NCBI GenBank assembly: GCA_018053845.1
Contig: JAGPKU010000002.1
Coordinates: 1 to 52,734 of the forward strand
Direction: 5' to 3'
Length of the DNA: 52,734 nucleotides
Source of the DNA: Syntrophobacterales bacterium
Lineage (GTDB): Bacteria; Desulfobacterota; Syntrophia; Syntrophales; UBA2192
Below, one piece after another: positions 4,023-52,734 of the stretch; position 1 is the first letter of the stretch, and each line of letters starts with the position of its first letter. The notes below the pieces were generated by a model that was not told the origin of the DNA, searched no databases, and saw only the letters and a list, made by a program, of their open reading frames with translations. The position numbers were made by a program, and so were the translations under genes.

Positions 4023-4042
4023 GCTGCCCCCTCGAAAAAAAA

Positions 4043-4137
4043 GAAGGGAAGAAGGTGAGACGGTTGGAGAGGCATGGGGCAGGAGCATGACCGCCGGCCT
4101 GTCCGACCCTCTTACCCTCTCAACCTCTTGCCTTCTC
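4043..4137. repeat. Short-period (8-nt) repeat pair between pepP and gcvH
   Basis: Two runs of 8-nt words. Left run 4043-4074: GAAGGGAA, GAAGGTGA, GACGGTTG, GAGAGGCA. Right run 4105-4136: GACCCTCT, TACCCTCT, CAACCTCT, TGCCTTCT. The left run is purine-rich and the right pyrimidine-rich, so the arms could pair imperfectly around the 30-base core. The core and start of the right run (GGCCTGTCCGACC then CTTACCCTCTC) recur at 12741-12765. This fills almost the whole gap between the two genes. Confidence 0.75.
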
Positions 4138-4142
4138 GTCTT

Positions 4143-7946: not shown

Positions 7947-8533
7947 GGTCTTCCCTCGCCTTCTTCTTTATGGAGCTTCAGCGCCACGCGATGCGACTTT
8001 TCCTTGCCCTTGCCGCCTTCCCCGACCTTCTCCTCGACGATGACCCGGTCGGGGAGGATCTGGATCACCCGGCCGCCGTTCTCGCCGATCAGCGTGCCCA
8101 GGTAGACGATGTAGCCCTTGCCCGACCCGTCCTCGACCATGGCCGCGCGCTTGTCCGTCGAGCCGGCGATGCCCGTCAGGCGGACCTTGTCCAGGGGCAC
8201 CCGCTGCAGGGGGGTGAGGTGGCCCGTGTACTTCTTTTTCTCCGGACCCTTCTTCGCGGGGGTGGGCAGCTCGAGCCGCACGAAGGGCTTGAAGGGGTCC
8301 GTCTTGCCCTTCGGGTCGTACCGGTAGTCCGGGATCTCGAGGGCCGCCGCCTCGGTCTTCACCGCGGCCGGCGCGGCGGCGGGCACGGCCGAGGCCACCG
8401 TCGCGGGCGCGGGCGCGGCCGCGGGCGGGGCCTGCGGCGGGGCCGCCGTTGCGGAAACCGCAAGCAGGAAGACGAGAGCCAGGCTTCCCGCCAGGGGCTT
8501 ACTTTTTCTGCACTGCTTTCTTGTCCGTTCCAT
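7943..8533 (-). CDS. pilP: Type IV pilus assembly lipoprotein/periplasmic protein PilP
   Basis: Periplasmic protein that links the inner-membrane PilN/PilO complex to the PilQ secretin. After an N-terminal hydrophobic segment (SLALVFLLAVSATAA) there is a low-complexity Ala/Pro linker, then the PilP beta domain with YDPKGKTDPFKPFV, the family hallmark, and LVPLDKV-like and IVYLGTLIGENGGRV strands. The ATG at 8533 (MERTRKQ) was chosen; a TTG at 8569 would lengthen the overlap with pilO. No lipobox cysteine follows the signal, so it is probably not a lipoprotein here, unlike PilP of Pseudomonas. Confidence 0.88.
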   Translation of the reverse strand: MERTRKQCRKSKPLAGSLALVFLLAVSATAAPPQAPPAAAPAPATVASAVPAAAPAAVKTEAAALEIPDYRYDPKGKTDPFKPFVRLELPTPAKKGPEKKKYTGHLTPLQRVPLDKVRLTGIAGSTDKRAAMVEDGSGKGYIVYLGTLIGENGGRVIQILPDRVIVEEKVGEGGKGKEKSHRVALKLHKEEGEGRP

Positions 8534-12671: not shown

Positions 12672-12676
12672 TCTCG

Positions 12677-12716
12677 TCTGTTTCGTTCTTTTCGTTTCTT
12701 TCGTTTGTTTCGTTCG
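12677..12716. repeat. 9-nt-period TTTCG repeat run
   Basis: Four words in strict 9-nt phase: TCTGTTTCG, TTCTTTTCG, TTTCTTTCG, TTTGTTTCG, then TTCG. It lies immediately upstream of the DUF39 start and is translated only if a spurious upstream start is used. The lead GTCTGTTTCG and following TCTTTTCG recur at 13344-13362. Confidence 0.8.
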
Positions 12717-12747
12717 ACGGCCCGGCATCCGGATCGCCCCGGCCTGT

Positions 12748-12807
12748 CCAACCTTCTTACCCTCTCGCCCTCTCAACTTCTGCGCTTCCCAACTTCATAA
12801 CTTCACG
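12748..12807. repeat. 8-nt-period pyrimidine-rich repeat run
   Basis: Seven words in strict 8-nt phase: CCAACCTT, CTTACCCT, CTCGCCCT, CTCAACTT, CTGCGCTT, CCCAACTT, CATAACTT, then CACG. The anchor is a pyrimidine pair plus CT or TT at the word end while inner bases vary. Its lead GGCCTGTCC and CTTACCCTCTC matches the run at 4100-4122. Confidence 0.8.
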
Positions 12808-13344: not shown

Positions 13345-13457
13345 TCTGTTTCGCTCTTTTCGCTATCGCCGGTTTCGCCGGCCCCGGTTGCGAAGGGCCG
13401 AAGGCCGCAGGCCGAGAAGGGAAAGACTGCATTTCCGCCGCCTGCGGCCCGTCGCCT
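13345..13457. repeat. Compound short-period repeat between the M16 protease gene and dut
   Basis: Begins with 9-nt words TCTGTTTCG, CTCTTTTCG, CTATCGCCG, GTTTCGCCG (13345-13380), homologous to the run at 12677. A purine-rich run follows with 8-nt spacing (TTGCGAAG, GGCCGAAG, GCCGCAGG, CCGAGAAG), then a core GGGAAAGACTGCATTTCC, and 7-nt words CCGCCTG, CGGCCCG, TCGCCTT, TCGCCTT ending next to the upstream stop codon. The arms are roughly complementary. Confidence 0.7.
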
Positions 13458-13463
13458 TTCGCC

Positions 13464-14726
13464 TTAGAGATCGACATCCCCCGCGGGCATTTCCGATTCC
13501 GTCATCTCGCCGAGGAAGACCATGGAGAGGTTGGGACGCGTGAACAGCCGACCGGCGAGGGACAGGATGTCCTCGGCGGTCACGGCCTCGATCCGGCCGA
13601 CGATCTCCTCGGGCGGCACGTTGCGGCCGAAGTAGATCTCGTTGGTCGCGAGCTTCTGCATCCGGTTGTCGGTGCTCTCCATGCTCAGCAGCAGATTGCC
13701 CTTGATCAGCTCCTTGGCCGACTGCAGCTCCTTGTCCGTGAGCCGCTCGGTCTTCATGCGCCGCATCTCGGCCAGGATGATGTCGATGACCTCCCGGGTC
13801 TTGTCCTTCGAGGTCCCGACGTAGACATTGAGCATCCCCGTGTCCCGATAGGAAACGATGTAGGAACGCACGGCGTAGGCCAGGCCCCGCTTCTCGCGGA
13901 TCTCCTGGAAGAGGCGGGAGCTCATCGAGCCGCCGAAGACGGAATTCATCAGGATGCCGGCGAACCGGTCGTTGTCCAGCGTCGCCGGGGCCGGCGTGCC
14001 GACGACGAGGTGGAGCTGCTCGAGATCCTTCTCGATGCAGCACCGGCGGGCCGTGGTGCCCGGCCGGATCTCCCCGGACTGCAGCCGCAGGGCCGGCAGC
14101 GACCCGAAGAGCTTCGCCACCCAATCGACCAGCGCCTCGTGCTCCAGGTTGCCCACGGCGGCGATCACCAGGTTCTCTCCCCGGTAACGATCCTCGAAGA
14201 ACCGCATGACCTGCCCGCGATCGAAGGCGTCGACGGAGTCCCTCGTGCCCAGGACCGGCATGGCCAGGGCATGCCCCTCCCAGAAATGCTTCTCGAAGAT
14301 GTCGTGGATGTACTCGTCGGGCGTGTCCTCCACCATGCTGATCTCCTGGAGGACGACGGCCTTTTCCTTTTCGATGTCGTCGAGGTCGAACCGCGAGTGG
14401 GTGAAGATGTCCGCGAGCAGGTCGATGGCCAGGTTCACGTGGTAGTCGGGAACCTTGACGTAGAACGCCGTCAGCTCCTTGCCCGTGAAGGCGTTCATCA
14501 CGCCCCCGACGGAGTCGATGTCGGAGGCGATGTCGAAGGCCGACCGCCGGTCCGTGCCCTTGAAGAGCATGTGCTCGATGAAGTGGGCCGTCCCGTTGAT
14601 CCGCTCGTCCTCGTGGCGCGACCCGCAGCGGACCCACGCGCCGATCGAGGCGGACCGGACGTGACGGATCTCCTCCGTGATGACCTTGATCCCGTTAGAA
14701 AGGACTGTTTTTCGGTACGTCTGCAC
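13464..14726 (-). CDS. M16 (pitrilysin-family) zinc protease
   Basis: Insulinase-family peptidase of 420 residues. The inverted zinc motif HxxEH is seen as HFIEH at residues 48-52 ([14 protein letters not shown]), with the downstream glutamate in [19 protein letters not shown]. The second half, with the [20 protein letters not shown] signature, forms the matching non-catalytic lobe. The GTG at 14726 (read as [15 protein letters not shown]) overlaps the end of pnp by 32 bases. This pnp-M16-dut order is common in related bacteria and resembles the mitochondrial-processing-peptidase-like proteins; its substrates are unknown. Confidence 0.88.
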
Positions 14727-19904: not shown

Positions 19905-19983
19905 CTCGTTCATTTCGTTCATTTCGTTGGTTCGTTGGTTTCGTCGAAAGGAACGAAAAAAACGAAAGAAACGAAACGAAACG
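19905..19983. repeat. 9-nt-period inverted repeat pair filling the infB-ylxP gap
   Basis: Left run from 19905: CTCGTTCAT, TTCGTTCAT, TTCGTTGGT, TCGTTGGTT, TCG. Right run from 19950: GGAACGAAA, AAAACGAAA, GAAACGAAA, CGAAACG. Both keep a 9-nt phase, and the right run is the complement type of the left, so the whole gap can fold on itself. It occupies essentially every base between the ylxP start and the infB stop. Confidence 0.85.
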
Positions 19984-19985
19984 TC

Positions 19986-22577
19986 TTAGAGTTTTCTCTC
20001 GATCTTTTCCGTGATGTACGCCTCGATCACGTCCCCCACGTGGATGTCGTTGTAGCCCTCGATGCCGAGGCCGCACTCCATCCCGGCGGAGACCTCCTTC
20101 GCATCGTCCTTGAAGCGCTTGAGCGAGGCGATCTTGCCGTCGTAGACGACCACCCCGTCGCGCACGAGCTTCACGCCGGCGCTGCGCGGGATCTTGCCGT
20201 CCGTCACGTAGCAGCCCGCCACGGTGCCCACCTTGACGATGCGGAAGGTCTCGCGGACCTCGGCCCGGCCCTGGACGACCTCCTTGTATTCGGGCTCCAG
20301 CAGGCCTTCCATGGCGGCCCGCACGTCGTTGATGGCGTTGTAGATGACGTCGTAGAGCTTGACCTCGACGCCCTCCTTCCCGGCGATCTCGACCACGCGC
20401 GCGTCGGGCCTCACCTTGAACCCCAGGATGATCGCGTCGGAGGCCGAGGCCAGCATGACGTCCGTTTCGGTGACGGCGCCCGTGGAGCTGTGGATGATCT
20501 TCAGCTTGATCTCGTCGGTGGAGAGCTTGCTGAGCGCCTCGGTCAGGGCCTCGAGAGACCCCTGGACGTCGGCCTTCAGGATCACGTTGAGTTCCTTGGC
20601 GCCCTCCTTGATCCGCTGGTAGAGCTGCTCCAGGGTGATCTTGGAGGAAGCGGCCAGTTCCTTCTCGCGCTCCTTGCGGATCCAGTACTCGCTGATGCTC
20701 TTGGCCTTCTTCTCGTCCTCGACGCCGATGAACTCGGCGCCCGCCTGCGGGACGCTGGAGAACCCGATGACCTCCACGGGCATGGAGGGGCCGGCCTCCT
20801 TGACGCGCCGGCCCTGGTCGTCGATCATGGCGCGCACGCGGCCGTACTCCGTCTTCGCGGAGAAGGCGTCGCCCTCGCGCAGCGTGCCCTCCTGGATGAG
20901 CACCGTCGCCACGGGGCCGCGGCCCTTGTCGAGCTTGGCCTCGATGATGATGCCGCGGGCCGGACGGTCCGGGTCGGCCTTCAGCTCGAGCACGTCGGCC
21001 TGCAGGAGGATGAGCTCCAGCAGGTTCTCGATGCCGATCTTCTTCTTCGCCGAGATGTCGGCGAAGAGCGCATCGCCCCCCCAGTCCTCGGGCACGAGGC
21101 CGTGCTGCGCGAGCTCCTGCTTGATCCGATCGGGGGTGGCATTGGGCTTGTCGATCTTGTTGACGGCCACGATGATCGGGACCCCCGCCGACCGCGAGTG
21201 GTTGATGGCCTCCACGGTCTGTTCCATGACGCCGTCGTCGGCCGCCACGACGAGGACGACGATGTCCGTCACCTTCGCCCCGCGGGCGCGCATGGCCGTG
21301 AAGGCCTCGTGGCCCGGCGTGTCGAGGAAGACGATGTCGCGGTCCTTGACGTGGACGTGGTAGGCGCCGATGGCCTGCGTGATGCCGCCGGCCTCGCCGT
21401 CGATGACGTTGGTCTGCCGGATCGCGTCCAGCAGCGAGGTCTTGCCGTGGTCGACGTGGCCCATGACGGTGACGACGGGCGCCCGGGGCTTCAGGTTCCG
21501 GGGCTCGGCCTCGACCCGCTGCATCAGCTCGTCGTACTCGGCCGTCACGGCCTCGACCTGGTAGCCGAACTCGGCGGCGATCAGGGTGGCCGCATCGACG
21601 TCGATGGACTGGTTGATGGTGACCATCATGCCCAGGCCCAGCAGCTTGTTGATGACGTCGCTGGCCCGCACGCCCATCTGCTTGGCCAGTTCGCCCACGC
21701 GGATGGCCTCGGAGATCCGGATCCGCCGCTTGATCGCCTTGGGCGTCGTGATCTCCGTCTTCTTCATCCTGACGGCGGCGGCCTTGCGTTCGCCCCTCCA
21801 GCGCGGCGATTCCTCTTCCTCGATCTCCCGGAGCCGGACCCGCTTGTCCTTCTTGTCGATGACCTGCTTGATCATCGTCTTCTTCTTGGCGGCCACGGAA
21901 TCCATGACCACCTCGACGGCCTTCTTGCCCTTCTTGTCGGCGCCCGGCGCAGCACCCCTCGCCTCCGCGCCCGACGGCGGGGCGGCCTGGCCGCGAGGCT
22001 GGCCCGGCACGGGCCCGGCGGGTTTGCGGATCTGCGCCTGCGGGACCGTCGAGGCCGGGGGCCTCGCGCCTTCCCGCCTCTCGACGGGCTCGGGCCGGCG
22101 GATGATCTGCGCCTGCCGGGACAGATCGGGCTCCTTTTTCGGGGGGGGCTCGGGCTTCGCGGCCGCGGGCGGCTCCGCGGCGGCCGGGGGCTCCTCCGCC
22201 CGGGGCTCGACGGGCTTTACCGCCGCATCGGCCTGTTCGGGCGGCTCGGCCTTCTCTTCCTTTTCCGGCAGGACGGCCTCTTCCTTCTCGGCCTTCTCGG
22301 CCGGCAAGGCCGCCTCTTCGGGGGCTGCAACCTGGGCGGCCTCCTCGGCCGGCAGGCGGACGGCCCGCCTGCGGATGACCGTCGACTTGACGCGCTTCTC
22401 GACGACCTCCTTTTCGCCCTTGGCGGCGAACTCGCGGCGGACCCGCTCGACCTCGCTGTCCTCGAGAGTGCTGGAGTGGGATTTGACGGCGATGCCAAGG
22501 GTCTTGAGCCTCGCGATGAACTCCTTGTTCTCGACCCCGAACTCCTTGGCCAGTTCGTAAACCCTCATCTTGGACAT
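19986..22577 (-). CDS. infB: Translation initiation factor IF-2
   Basis: GTPase delivering initiator tRNA to the 30S subunit, 863 residues. Two IF2-N modules (starting [20 protein letters not shown], and [20 protein letters not shown] near residue 290) flank a long charged Lys/Glu/Pro/Ala linker. The G domain has [14 protein letters not shown] at about residues 373-386, [15 protein letters not shown] and NKIDKPNA, and is followed by the beta-barrel and C-terminal fMet-tRNA-binding domains ([20 protein letters not shown]). Two in-frame ATGs (22577, 22568) are three codons apart. Confidence 0.97.
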
Positions 22578-23889: not shown

Positions 23890-23909
23890 GCGTGACCTCC
23901 TGATCTGAT

Positions 23910-23982
23910 AGGCATCAGGCATGAGGCGTCAGGCTCCGGGAAATACGCTTTCCCTTGCTGCCTGCTGCCCGTTGCCTGCCTT
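23910..23982. repeat. 7-nt-period inverted repeat pair between nusA and rimP
   Basis: Left run AGGCATC, AGGCATG, AGGCGTC, AGGCTCC (23910-23937). Core GGGAAA-TACGC-TTTCCC is itself a perfect hairpin (23938-23954). Right run TTGCTGC, CTGCTGC, CCGTTGC, CTGCC (23955-23980). The AGGC anchor is fixed and the other three bases vary. This is the clearest example of the arm-core-arm plan. Confidence 0.85.
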
Positions 23983-24033
23983 TTCCAAACCGTCCGTTGA
24001 CTCAAACATGGGGTCTTCGGCACGGAGAAAGCG

Positions 24034-24555
24034 TTATTTCTTCTTCCTGCCTGGTGCCTGATGCCTGGTGCCTGTCGCCCGCAGTTCGTATTCCAGATTC
24101 GCCTTCTGGATGTTCTCCCGGTCGATAAGGACGGCCCGCCCGTCCACGTCGAGGGTGACGATCCGCCGGCCGCCCTCGATCGTGTAGTCGGCGTAGGTGC
24201 CCACAAAATTCCGCGAGCCGTCGATGGGCTCCCGGGTCCGGATGCGGACCCTCGAGCCGCGGTACTGCTCGAAATCCTTGTCGCGGGTCAGCGGCCTGTC
24301 GAGCCCCGGCGTCGACACCTCCAGCGTGTAGGGCCCCGGCGGCAGGTCGTGCACGTTGAGCAGATCGCCCACCTGGTGGCTGAGGGCCGCGCAGTCGTCC
24401 AGGGTCGCCCCGCCCTCGCGGTCGATGAAGATCCGCACGAGCCAGCGGGTCTTCATCCGCAGGCACTCGAGCTCCACGAGCTCGAGCCCCTCGGACTCGA
24501 CGGCGGGCCCGACGAGCTCGATGATCCTTTCGCGGTATGTGGGACTTTCCGGCAT
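24034..24555 (-). CDS. rimP: Ribosome maturation factor RimP
   Basis: Assembly factor for the 30S subunit, 173 residues. Recognisable segments: ELVGPAVESEGLELVELECL, VRIFIDREGGATLDDCAALS and PGPYTLEVSTPGLDRPLTRD, the family signature. The last 13 or so residues (TGTRHQAPGRKKK) are encoded by the 7-nt repeat at 24049-24076 and do not look like normal RimP sequence, so the original stop seems to have been overrun. The ATG at 24555 falls inside the first word of the repeat at 24551, and no clear ribosome-binding site precedes it. Confidence 0.92.
   Translation of the reverse strand: MPESPTYRERIIELVGPAVESEGLELVELECLRMKTRWLVRIFIDREGGATLDDCAALSHQVGDLLNVHDLPPGPYTLEVSTPGLDRPLTRDKDFEQYRGSRVRIRTREPIDGSRNFVGTYADYTIEGGRRIVTLDVDGRAVLIDRENIQKANLEYELRATGTRHQAPGRKKK
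24049..24076. repeat. 7-nt-period repeat run inside the 3' end of rimP
   Basis: Four words GCCTGGT, GCCTGAT, GCCTGGT, GCCTGTC in strict phase (24049-24076). It is the complement type of the AGGC run at 23910, and near-identical to the run at 37503-37525. Next to it, the sequence around 24026-24040 carries a near copy, inverted, of the AAATACGCTTTC core. This run is translated as the C-terminus of RimP. Confidence 0.85.
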
Positions 24556-24633
24556 AGGGCCTATGGCTTATGGCAATGGAAAATTCATCTTCAACAGGGC
24601 CTTGCGCCTTATGCCCTTCGCCTTGCGCCTGTT
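24551..24633. repeat. 7-nt-period inverted repeat pair overlapping the rimP start
   Basis: Left run GGCATAG, GGCCTAT, GGCTTAT, GGCAATG (24551-24578). Core GGAAAATTCATCTTC. Right run GCCTTGC, GCCTTAT, GCCCTTC, GCCTTGC, GCCTGTT (24599-24633). The rimP start codon is within the first word. On the minus strand the pair lies in the rimP leader. No gene is seen in the rest of the 24556-24832 gap, which has a T-rich stretch after GC-rich sequence near 24728-24760 that may terminate the upstream operon. Confidence 0.85.
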
Positions 24634-33076: not shown

Positions 33077-33148
33077 CAAGCATCGAGGCTCAAGCAGCAA
33101 GGATTTCTTGCCTCGTCGCTTGAGGCCTGCTGCTTGTGGCTTCTTGTT

Positions 33149-33149
<1 letters not shown>
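33077..33149. repeat. 7-nt-period inverted repeat pair between hisD and murA
   Basis: Left run CAAGCAT, CGAGGCT, CAAGCAG, CAAGGAT (33077-33104). Right run TTGCCTC, GTCGCTT, GAGGCCT, GCTGCTT, GTGGCTT, CTTGTTT (33108-33149), of complementary type. The right run ends exactly at the murA stop codon. Confidence 0.8.
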
Positions 33150-34402
<1,253 letters not shown>

Positions 34403-37446: not shown

Positions 37447-37525
37447 CTCCGGATGCCGGGTTCAGGGGATGGGAAACGCTTTTTCGCCGTTCCAGATCCC
37501 CTATGCCTGGTGCCTGATGCCTGTC
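37447..37525. repeat. 7-nt-period repeat between rpmE and rho
   Basis: Right run ATGCCTG, GTGCCTG, ATGCCTG (37503-37523), ending at the rho stop codon and nearly identical to the run inside rimP at 24049. The left run (GGATGCC, GGGTTCA, GGGGATG, roughly 37451-37471) is more degraded. The core GGGAAACGCTTTTTC resembles the GGGAAATACGCTTTCCC core at 23938. Confidence 0.75.
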
Positions 37526-39831: not shown

Positions 39832-39920
39832 GGCATAAGGCTTATGGCGCAGGGCTTAAGGCAAGCCCATTTCCGCTTTTCCTTTTCTTGCCTTAAGCCT
39901 TCAGCCCTAAGCCCTTTGCC
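39832..39920. repeat. 7-nt-period inverted repeat pair overlapping the end of the RluA-family gene
   Basis: Left run GGCATAA, GGCTTAT, GGCGCAG, GGCTTAA, GGCAAGC (39832-39866). Core CATTTCCGCTTTTCC. Right run TTGCCTT, AAGCCTT, CAGCCCT, AAGCCCT, TTGCC (39888-39920), overlapping the last codons and stop of the neighbouring gene. The arms are complementary in type. Confidence 0.85.
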
Positions 39921-42347: not shown

Positions 42348-42468
42348 GTCAAGGCTCTTGCAGCAAGGTTTCTCCGGGGAGCAACAAGGATCAGGGATCA
42401 AGCAACAAGGGTGCCTGTCGAAGAAAATTCTGTCACCTTGTTGCTCGCGGCGTGGGGCTTGCGGCTTC
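42348..42468. repeat. 7-nt-period inverted repeat pair between selA and the radical SAM gene
   Basis: Left part GTCAAGG, CTCTTGC, AGCAAGG (42348-42368), then GAGCAAC, AAGGATC, AGGGATC, AAGCAAC, AAGGGTG (42379-42413). Core GAAGAAAATTCTGTC. Right run CACCTTG, TTGCTCG, CGGCGTG, GGGCTTG, CGGCTTC (42434-42468), which ends just before the stop of the radical SAM gene. Confidence 0.8.
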
Positions 42469-42473
42469 GCCCG

Positions 42474-43715: not shown

Positions 43716-44028
43716 GGGATTCTCTCCGGGTGTGCCTGGAAGGCATTTTCCTTGCGGTCAGGCGACGTTAGCAGACATCAACGGATTTATCAACAGGAAA
43801 GGCTTGTGGCATAAGGCTAAGGGCTTGGGAAGAAAAATACAAGAGTCGCAACGGTTGAATTTCATGCCGTGTGGTGTTATAGCATCAACAAATTCATTCC
43901 CCTGCAATGGCCTTTCGACTTACGCCGCATGCCCTGCGCCCGCGGCCCCATGACCTCACGGAGGCCGGGCGCGCCGGAATGTCGCGGACGAGAGGCGACA
44001 CACCCGCTATCGAAGGAAGAGGCCGCAT
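43716..44028. other. Divergent intergenic region between the radical SAM gene and def
   Basis: No gene. Most of the 313 bases are the short-period repeat at 43801-43950. The def ribosome-binding site GGAAGAG is near 44015-44022. Promoters for both directions must lie here, but none is clear. Confidence 0.6.
43801..43950. repeat. 7-nt-period inverted repeat pair upstream of def
   Basis: Left run GGCTTGT, GGCATAA, GGCTAAG, GGCTTGG (43801-43828), then GAAGAAAAATAC. A spacer of about 70 bases follows. Right run GGCCTTT, CGACTTA, CGCCGCA, TGCCCTG, CGCCCGC, GGCCCCA (43909-43950). The left words match those at 39832 (GGCATAA in both). Confidence 0.75.
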
Positions 44029-52610: not shown

Positions 52611-52671
52611 GGCTTCATCTGAGATCTTCGGCGTCACTTCCGCTCAATCGCTTCAAGTATGGCACAAACCC

Positions 52672-52734
52672 AGGTGACAGGTTACAGGTGTCAGGTGGCA
52701 GAAAAGATGGGCAATGGGGTCTTCCTGTTACCTG
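52672..52734. repeat. 7-nt-period repeat at the right edge, right arm cut
   Basis: Left run AGGTGAC, AGGTTAC, AGGTGTC, AGGTGGC (52672-52699), core beginning AGAAAAGATGGGC, then the start of a complementary run CCTGTTA, CCTG (52724-52734) at the window edge. The anchor is AGGT with three variable bases, different from the AGGC and GGC anchors of other loci. Confidence 0.8.

Follow-up and report, generated by a model that had tools for sequence, protein, structure and literature searches.

Phased short-word arrays in the intergenic gaps of the window

The stretch of DNA analysed here (the window, 52,734 nt) is contig C46 of G000, the genome of an uncultured Syntrophales bacterium, 2.65 Mb in 162 contigs, whose closest relatives among the compared genomes are MAGs of the Syntrophales/Syntrophaceae. 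The gap between rimP (24034-24555, minus strand) and nusA holds an element in which two arms made of 7-nt words flank a short core (Table 1), with a fold of -36.9 kcal/mol (z -4.3). A third 7-nt run, 82% complementary to the arm at 23907-23934, lies at the end of rimP, where it supplies the C-terminal codons of the gene, and drift of the array alters the protein tail. Directly upstream of the called rimP start, a further 7-nt element folds no better than shuffles (z -0.2), and 7-nt words of the GGC class (GGC7) occupy the matching place in the congener G004, whose NusA is 98% identical to that of G000 and whose flanking DNA is ~90% identical.

Similar elements are found in other gaps of the window. 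A sequence-only reading had listed twelve intergenic sites as sharing one design, and we recovered arrays at or beside 4043, 12677, 12748, 13345, 19905, 23910, 24049, 24551, 33077, 37447 (at 37504-37523), 39832, 42348 (at 42380-42467) and 52672; only the site at 43801 stayed below threshold. The 8-nt element at 4041 shares 80% identity over 96 nt with a site on a different contig, and the same gap in G004 contains a GAAGTTGN element instead. A 9-nt GTCTATCCA element stands in another congener, G002 (L071), at the place matching 19906-19983, and the G004 counterpart of the 33078 element has equal length (99-nt gap) and the same word class, with different letters. Other repeats also occur. A dispersed repeat with GTCATTCCGC/ATGCGGAATCC at 35525-35807 matches a second gap (L018) at 86% identity across 89 nt, its own gap measuring 12 nt in G004. 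GC-rich low-complexity tandem repeats with periods of 6-21, which are of a different kind, lie in called coding sequence at 8363-8446 and 22153-22199.

Table 1. Array elements of the window, with their counterparts in G004 where compared
Feature	Position	Strand	Remarks
8-nt element, dispersed AGAGGGTG family	4041..4142	-	fold z -4.2
9-nt run (TCGTTCTTT...) followed by 8-nt run ACCTTCTT ACCCTCTC GCCCTCTC AACTTCTG	12674..12805	-	
9-nt TTTCGCTCT run and 7-nt GGCCGAA element	13349..13465	-	G004 counterpart: CAGGCNN 7-nt words
9-nt element between infB and next gene	19906..19983	-	pyrimidine arm first on coding strand; fold z -2.9
7-nt element, rimP-nusA gap	23907..23980	-	arm AGGCATC AGGCATG AGGCGTC AGGC, core GGGAAATACGCTTTCCC, arm GCTGCCTGCTGCCCGTTGCCTG
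Third 7-nt run, TGCCTGG TGCCTGA TGCCTGG TGCCTG	24034..24100	-	spans rimP stop and last codons
7-nt element, arms GGCNNNN / GCCNNNN	24551..24632	-	directly upstream of called rimP start
7-nt CAAGCAG element	33078..33165	-	fold z -2.7
One-armed 7-nt run, GGCATCA GGCACCA GGCATAG	37504..37523	-	directly after stop codon; class kept in G004
7-nt GGCTTAA element filling gap	39832..39920	-	fold z -3.6; G004 gap: 8-nt TGGAATGA element
7-nt AGCAACA element	42370..42470	-	fold z -2.8; G004 gap: 8-nt TGGAATGA element
Weak 7-nt GGC and GCC arms	43760..43980	.	sub-threshold; flank core with GATGCTATARCACCAC, core kept in G004
7-nt run, CAGGTGA CAGGTTA CAGGTGT CAGGTGG	52671..52701	+	

Arrays exceed chance and concentrate after stop codons

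In a first sample of 404 intergenic gaps, base-match autocorrelation exceeded that of dinucleotide shuffles at lags 7 (z=23), 8 (z=14) and 9 (z=5); harmonics appear at lags 14 (z=10), 16 and 21, and the values are flat at lags 10 and 11. Lags 7, 8 and 9 gave 46, 30 and 11 segments with a score of 12 or more, a few of them being N runs, against 3.0-3.4 in shuffles; called genes had about one at each of lags 7 and 8, and seven at lag 9, to which codon periodicity contributes. We rejected a coding artefact, since genes are periodic at lags 3, 6, 9 and 12 and not at 7 or 8; lag 3 is also raised in the gaps, where it probably reflects missed coding. The excess extends beyond the window. In a larger sample of genomic stretches (809 kb of G000 and 1.18 Mb of G004), with arrays called at a score of at least 10 and gaps with N left out, 114 of 535 gaps in G000 and 100 of 728 in G004 bear arrays. 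The density of one site per 4 kb, stated for the window, falls to ~1 array-bearing gap per 7 kb genome-wide in G000. Inverted repeats scoring at least 12 are present in 60 gaps versus 1.7 in shuffles. Neither of the outcomes named with the first reading as refuting it, autocorrelation no higher than in shuffles or a lack of such runs outside the window, was thus observed.

Other trivial or known sources were discarded. Illumina adapter remnants, suggested by AGATCGGAAGAGC-like 8-nt words, were rejected because variants recur in separately assembled congeners and such words also appear in hairpins of other words. CRISPR loci were rejected from the sequence, long repeats and spacers being lacking. 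G-quadruplexes were rejected as a general cause because the anchors lack G-tracts. An Rfam 15 scan of the window at gathering score returned tRNA-Gly as sole match and no match to an array.

The arrays are placed with respect to gene ends. In tandem gaps the median distance is 15 nt from the upstream stop codon to the array and 55 nt from the array to the following start codon (p=3e-6). Among gaps of 60-300 nt, an array is present in 19% of those between tandem genes, 24% of those between convergent genes and 6% of those between divergent genes. Gene limits are approximate, as genes in the G000 and G004 samples were called with a custom dicodon-based caller. Of 14 arrays listed in called genes, eight are assembly N runs and six are real, five of these within 60 nt of the 3' end. 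The claim that gene interiors are free of arrays thus holds except where arrays overrun gene 3' ends, as at 24049, within the last codons of rimP.

Word classes and arm anatomy

Words of all three lengths described before are found, and they fall into classes. The 7-nt classes are GGCNNVR, CAGGTNN and CAAGCAN, the 8-nt classes GAAGNNNN, GAGGGTNN and TGGAATNN, and the 9-nt classes GTC and TTCGTT types. The anchors are GGC, GAAG, GGAA or TTCGTT, without G-tracts of three or more per word, and neighbouring words of an array share 47% of their non-anchor letters. There are several word classes, rather than the one shared family first proposed, and two of the 8-nt classes form dispersed, MITE-like families alignable along arms and core, unrelated sites matching at 86% across 124 nt. 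The GGC7 class shows no conserved core, and its copies are not alignable over their whole length.

As had been noticed, elements as a rule have a second, complementary run, although the two arms are paired at their anchors only and not letter by letter in one register. Non-anchor letters pair at 0.40 in the hairpin register versus 0.40-0.43 in shifted registers, so we rejected mirror-copied arms; the arms share words. Purine-first polarity of the arms, counted on both strands, is nearly strict (GGC 43:1, GAAG 30:0, AGG 28:1); the 9-nt type at 19906-19983 has the opposite order. Perfect arrays, with four or more copies of one word, were found only at periods 7 (n=7) and 8 (n=1) among periods 5-13 in the ~2 Mb of both samples, and one element of an 8-nt class carries a perfect (CTTCTTA)5 in its arm. 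These cases suggest word-by-word expansion, a preferred step and a route between word lengths. In the CAGGTNN elements at C18:264-343 and C111:13222-13317 of G000, one arm consists almost throughout of CAGGTAA while the other is degenerate, which would fit a recent expansion of just one arm.

A shared end motif borders 8-nt elements in 9 of its 22 matches, as judged by eye, and also ends another repeat; the flanks of the 8-nt elements are too diverged for a target-site duplication to be defined. A second dispersed repeat lies at C2:271676, C3:89233 and C2:44964 of G004 (joined-sample coordinates) and at L034:1601 of G000; its ends resemble CAGGCTGTTGAAAAA ... GGCGCCTTGCATCTGGGCATTTTTGAACAGCCTG and its interior contains GTACGCCTCGCTCCTCGG. 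Several 8-nt word elements likewise abut the right end of this repeat, which gives the impression of swapped interiors. A hairpin resembling an intrinsic terminator (AAAAAACCTGAAGGCCC) is found at C4:12602 of G000 between arms of the GAAGAGCG family, and its counterpart in G004 stands without such arms. No GTAG-type ends, of the GTAG/GAGG kind that marks REP palindromes, were noticed in an unsystematic look, and a Y1_Tnp (RAYT) transposase as genus-specific mover is not supported, Y1_Tnp genes being found in array-rich and array-poor genomes alike.

Conservation and turnover between sister species

Orthologous gaps of G000 and G004 tend to agree in bearing arrays: 16 have them in both, 19 in G000 only, 8 in G004 only and 110 in neither (OR 11.6, p=5e-7). 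GGC elements retain their class in 9 of 16 cases (automatic table), and for most 8-nt elements of G000 the G004 gap either lacks an element or has a replacement. Replacement can involve a change of word length, from 7-nt words in G000 to TGGAATNN 8-nt words in G004 at 39832 and 42370, or two different 8-nt words, as at 4041. Filled and empty orthologous sites measure 199 vs 0 nt and 219 vs 47 nt.

For GGC elements picked in G000 alone and compared with their G004 orthologues, anchors are kept at 193 of 216 positions and non-anchors at 130 of 216 (p=2e-12). The reverse direction, from G004 to G000, gives 183/195 and 119/192, that is, 89-94% conservation of anchors versus 60-62% for the letters between them, in 17-18 runs of a single species pair. 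These counts agree with the earlier claim that anchors stay in phase as the remaining letters drift. The difference holds in one-armed gaps (41/45 vs 24/44) and for each base: G and C are kept at 93% and 85% as anchors, 55% and 49% as non-anchors, and 77% and 76% in intergenic DNA outside runs. In the downstream arm of the rimP-nusA element the GCC anchors of the two species align although hardly any intervening letter is shared, and the word type of G004 is also that of its congeners G003 and G006 (both by eye). Non-anchor letters also change faster than other intergenic DNA (0.60 vs ~0.75 kept), which is no proof of selection because word exchange within an array could produce it. Only the slow rate of the anchors argues for selection; it calls for constraint, though it does not amount to proof of a function.

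Distribution across genomes

A GGC pattern, with 130 matches in G000 and none in a reversed control, was searched in 149 genomes of the order. Matches are plentiful in the genus (except G002) and in G018, G034, G040, G065 and G124, of intermediate number in G007, and few or none in the remainder; some of them are near-exact arrays, for instance in G124. The GGC pattern is also patchy across 158 genomes of the phylum Desulfobacterota. The GAAG pattern is, across the order, nearly confined to the genus and G034. Arrays of G034 also follow stop codons (median 7 nt) and lie outside genes, all three two-armed GGC elements of G018 are purine-first, and the hairpin-array design recurs in another family of the order. 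G002 has only 8 GGC7 matches against 127-212 in its congeners, and it keeps GAAG 8-nt arrays and the 9-nt element; its genome is 86% complete, and incompleteness cannot explain this scarcity. As G002 is almost without them, GGC7 arrays are not indispensable. The CAGGTNN class is present in G000, G001, G004 and G005, with one copy in G002, and none was found in G003 and G006.

Origin and possible role

We give about even credence to a reading in which the arrays are gene-end inverted repeats whose arms grow in 7-9-nt steps, which are partly mobile, and whose selected anchors serve a boundary role. Two convergent arrays of 7-, 8- or 9-nt words would flank a short core a few bases after stop codons. 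Single words would be duplicated or lost, so that the arms grow and are rewritten 7-9 nt at a time, which would keep the phase while changing the letters between anchors. Part of the elements may move or be replaced as MITE-like units, which would account for different word classes in one gap of sister species. Selection would keep the anchors because they are contacted by a putative DNA-binding protein or by the DNA or RNA hairpin itself, and the element might work as a gene-end boundary comparable in role to the REP/BIME of E. coli.

The main rival explanation is that the arrays are neutral repeats, generated by replication slippage in 7-9-nt steps and by MITE-like spread wherever they do no harm, the anchors being simply what the words have in common. 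We regard it as a serious possibility, if a less probable one, given the perfect period-7 and period-8 expansions, the dispersed families with shared flanking ends, the word spectrum that differs between species, the absence or replacement of most G000 8-nt elements in G004 and the fast non-anchor letters; moreover, avoidance of promoters and ribosome-binding sites could alone be enough to place neutral repeats after stop codons. It fits poorly with the nearly strict polarity of the arms and with anchors that change less than like bases do elsewhere in intergenic DNA and are slow in one-armed gaps too, and this anchor rate, seen in one species pair, tips the balance toward constraint. Selection had been put forward at the outset together with a templated copying process; anchor conservation backs the former, and the perfect 7-nt expansions point to ordinary steps for which no copying machine is needed. 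Fixed-step templated synthesis, such as a polymerase adding words from an RNA template, would agree with constant word length within an array and with the same words at many sites, but we deem it highly improbable because most non-anchor positions vary, one element mixes 7- and 8-nt words, ordinary slippage accounts for the steps and no candidate enzyme was identified.

Elements close to stop codons might also be RNA stem-loops at mRNA 3' ends or between cistrons, acting as terminators, attenuators or exonuclease barriers. The 118 two-armed elements have a median fold z of -2.9, and a T-rich stretch follows 18-32% of GGC7 arms versus 4% in the background. Nevertheless, the majority lack a T-tract, T-richness partly continues the word composition, non-anchor letters show no register-specific pairing, and elements lie within the rimP-nusA-infB series, where it would be costly to end transcripts. 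Folded RNA of the sense strand is no more stable than that of the antisense strand (46 vs 42 elements more stable, p=0.54), so that a strand-specific RNA function finds no support, and we consider the stem-loop explanation improbable. For the selected gene-end repeats that we favour, we think that a role at the level of DNA is more likely than one of strand-specific RNA, given this equal stability, the richness of convergent gaps in arrays, equal to that of tandem gaps, and the anchors kept by one-armed runs. A more elaborate and rather doubtful version would be a dedicated trans-acting system in which class-specific proteins read anchors at 7-, 8- or 9-nt spacing, classes are swapped wholesale while the gap stays occupied, and loss of a factor, perhaps in G002, leads to decay of its class.

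Comparison with known repeats

Cyanobacterial STRR heptamers, once taken as the nearest analogue, are near-exact copies. The arrays described here are likewise tandem intergenic heptamers in part but, unlike them, share only 47% of non-anchor letters and include just 8 perfect arrays (at least four words) in 2 Mb. REP/BIME and other bacterial MITEs are short, dispersed intergenic palindromes near gene ends. Our elements resemble them in all these respects and differ in having arms of phased short words and, in GGC7, no conserved core; copies alignable over their whole length, as in MITEs, exist for two 8-nt families and not for GGC7.

The TAACTGA repeats of Beggiatoaceae are also tandem intergenic heptamers; they repeat a single invariant word, lie for the most part immediately 5' of starts, and are all direct repeats but one (PMC4679880). 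Closer relatives have been published. In Geobacter metallireducens, a former deltaproteobacterium, paired "predicted global regulator binding sites" consist of tandem octamers (GTTGCTYN, TCTCCGTS) or heptamers (MTYCTGA), recoverable by BLAST in tens of copies within that single species, and were proposed to bind IHF/HU (PMC2700814). They also form opposite-strand pairs at variable distance (PMC2700814), whereas the words here differ and vary far more. Xanthomonas heptamers, (GGGANTN)n with positions 1-4 and 6 conserved, form 70-75 convergent pairs among ~185 repeats per genome, lie on average 28 nt from the upstream ORF versus 160 nt from the next, are rare between divergent genes and occupy the same gaps in related species with differing sequence; they were reported without function (Rehm et al. 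2015, PMC4692102). Intergenic heptamers of Nostoc have the form GGGGA(C/T)T, and a polymerase-footprint explanation for the preference for heptamers is quoted in the same work (PMC4692102). A literature search in which subscription journals were thinly covered returned no description closer than these Xanthomonas/Nostoc and Geobacter repeats.

The arrays studied here are not members of the Xanthomonas/Nostoc heptamer repeats, but they are alike in build and placement: tandem 7-nt words with kept and free positions, mostly intergenic, in convergent purine-first pairs near the upstream stop and rare in divergent gaps. They look like a maintained form of bacterial gene-end punctuation related to those repeats. 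No function has been assigned to the phased heptamers noted in Xanthomonas, Nostoc, Geobacter and Beggiatoaceae; between-species evidence is now added that anchors are kept and the rest is not, and that elements of different word length may hold one gap in sister species. Sister species with and without the GGC class offer a natural contrast that makes the long-open question of function testable. Unlike in the Xanthomonas/Nostoc heptamers, 7-, 8- and 9-nt classes coexist in one genome, the anchors are GGC, GAAG, GGAA and TTCGTT instead of runs of 3-4 G, some 8-nt elements are dispersed families, and the word class may switch between species at one gap. Three word lengths in a single genome, anchors without G-tracts, anchor constraint between species and replacement of word classes at orthologous gaps are what is new here.
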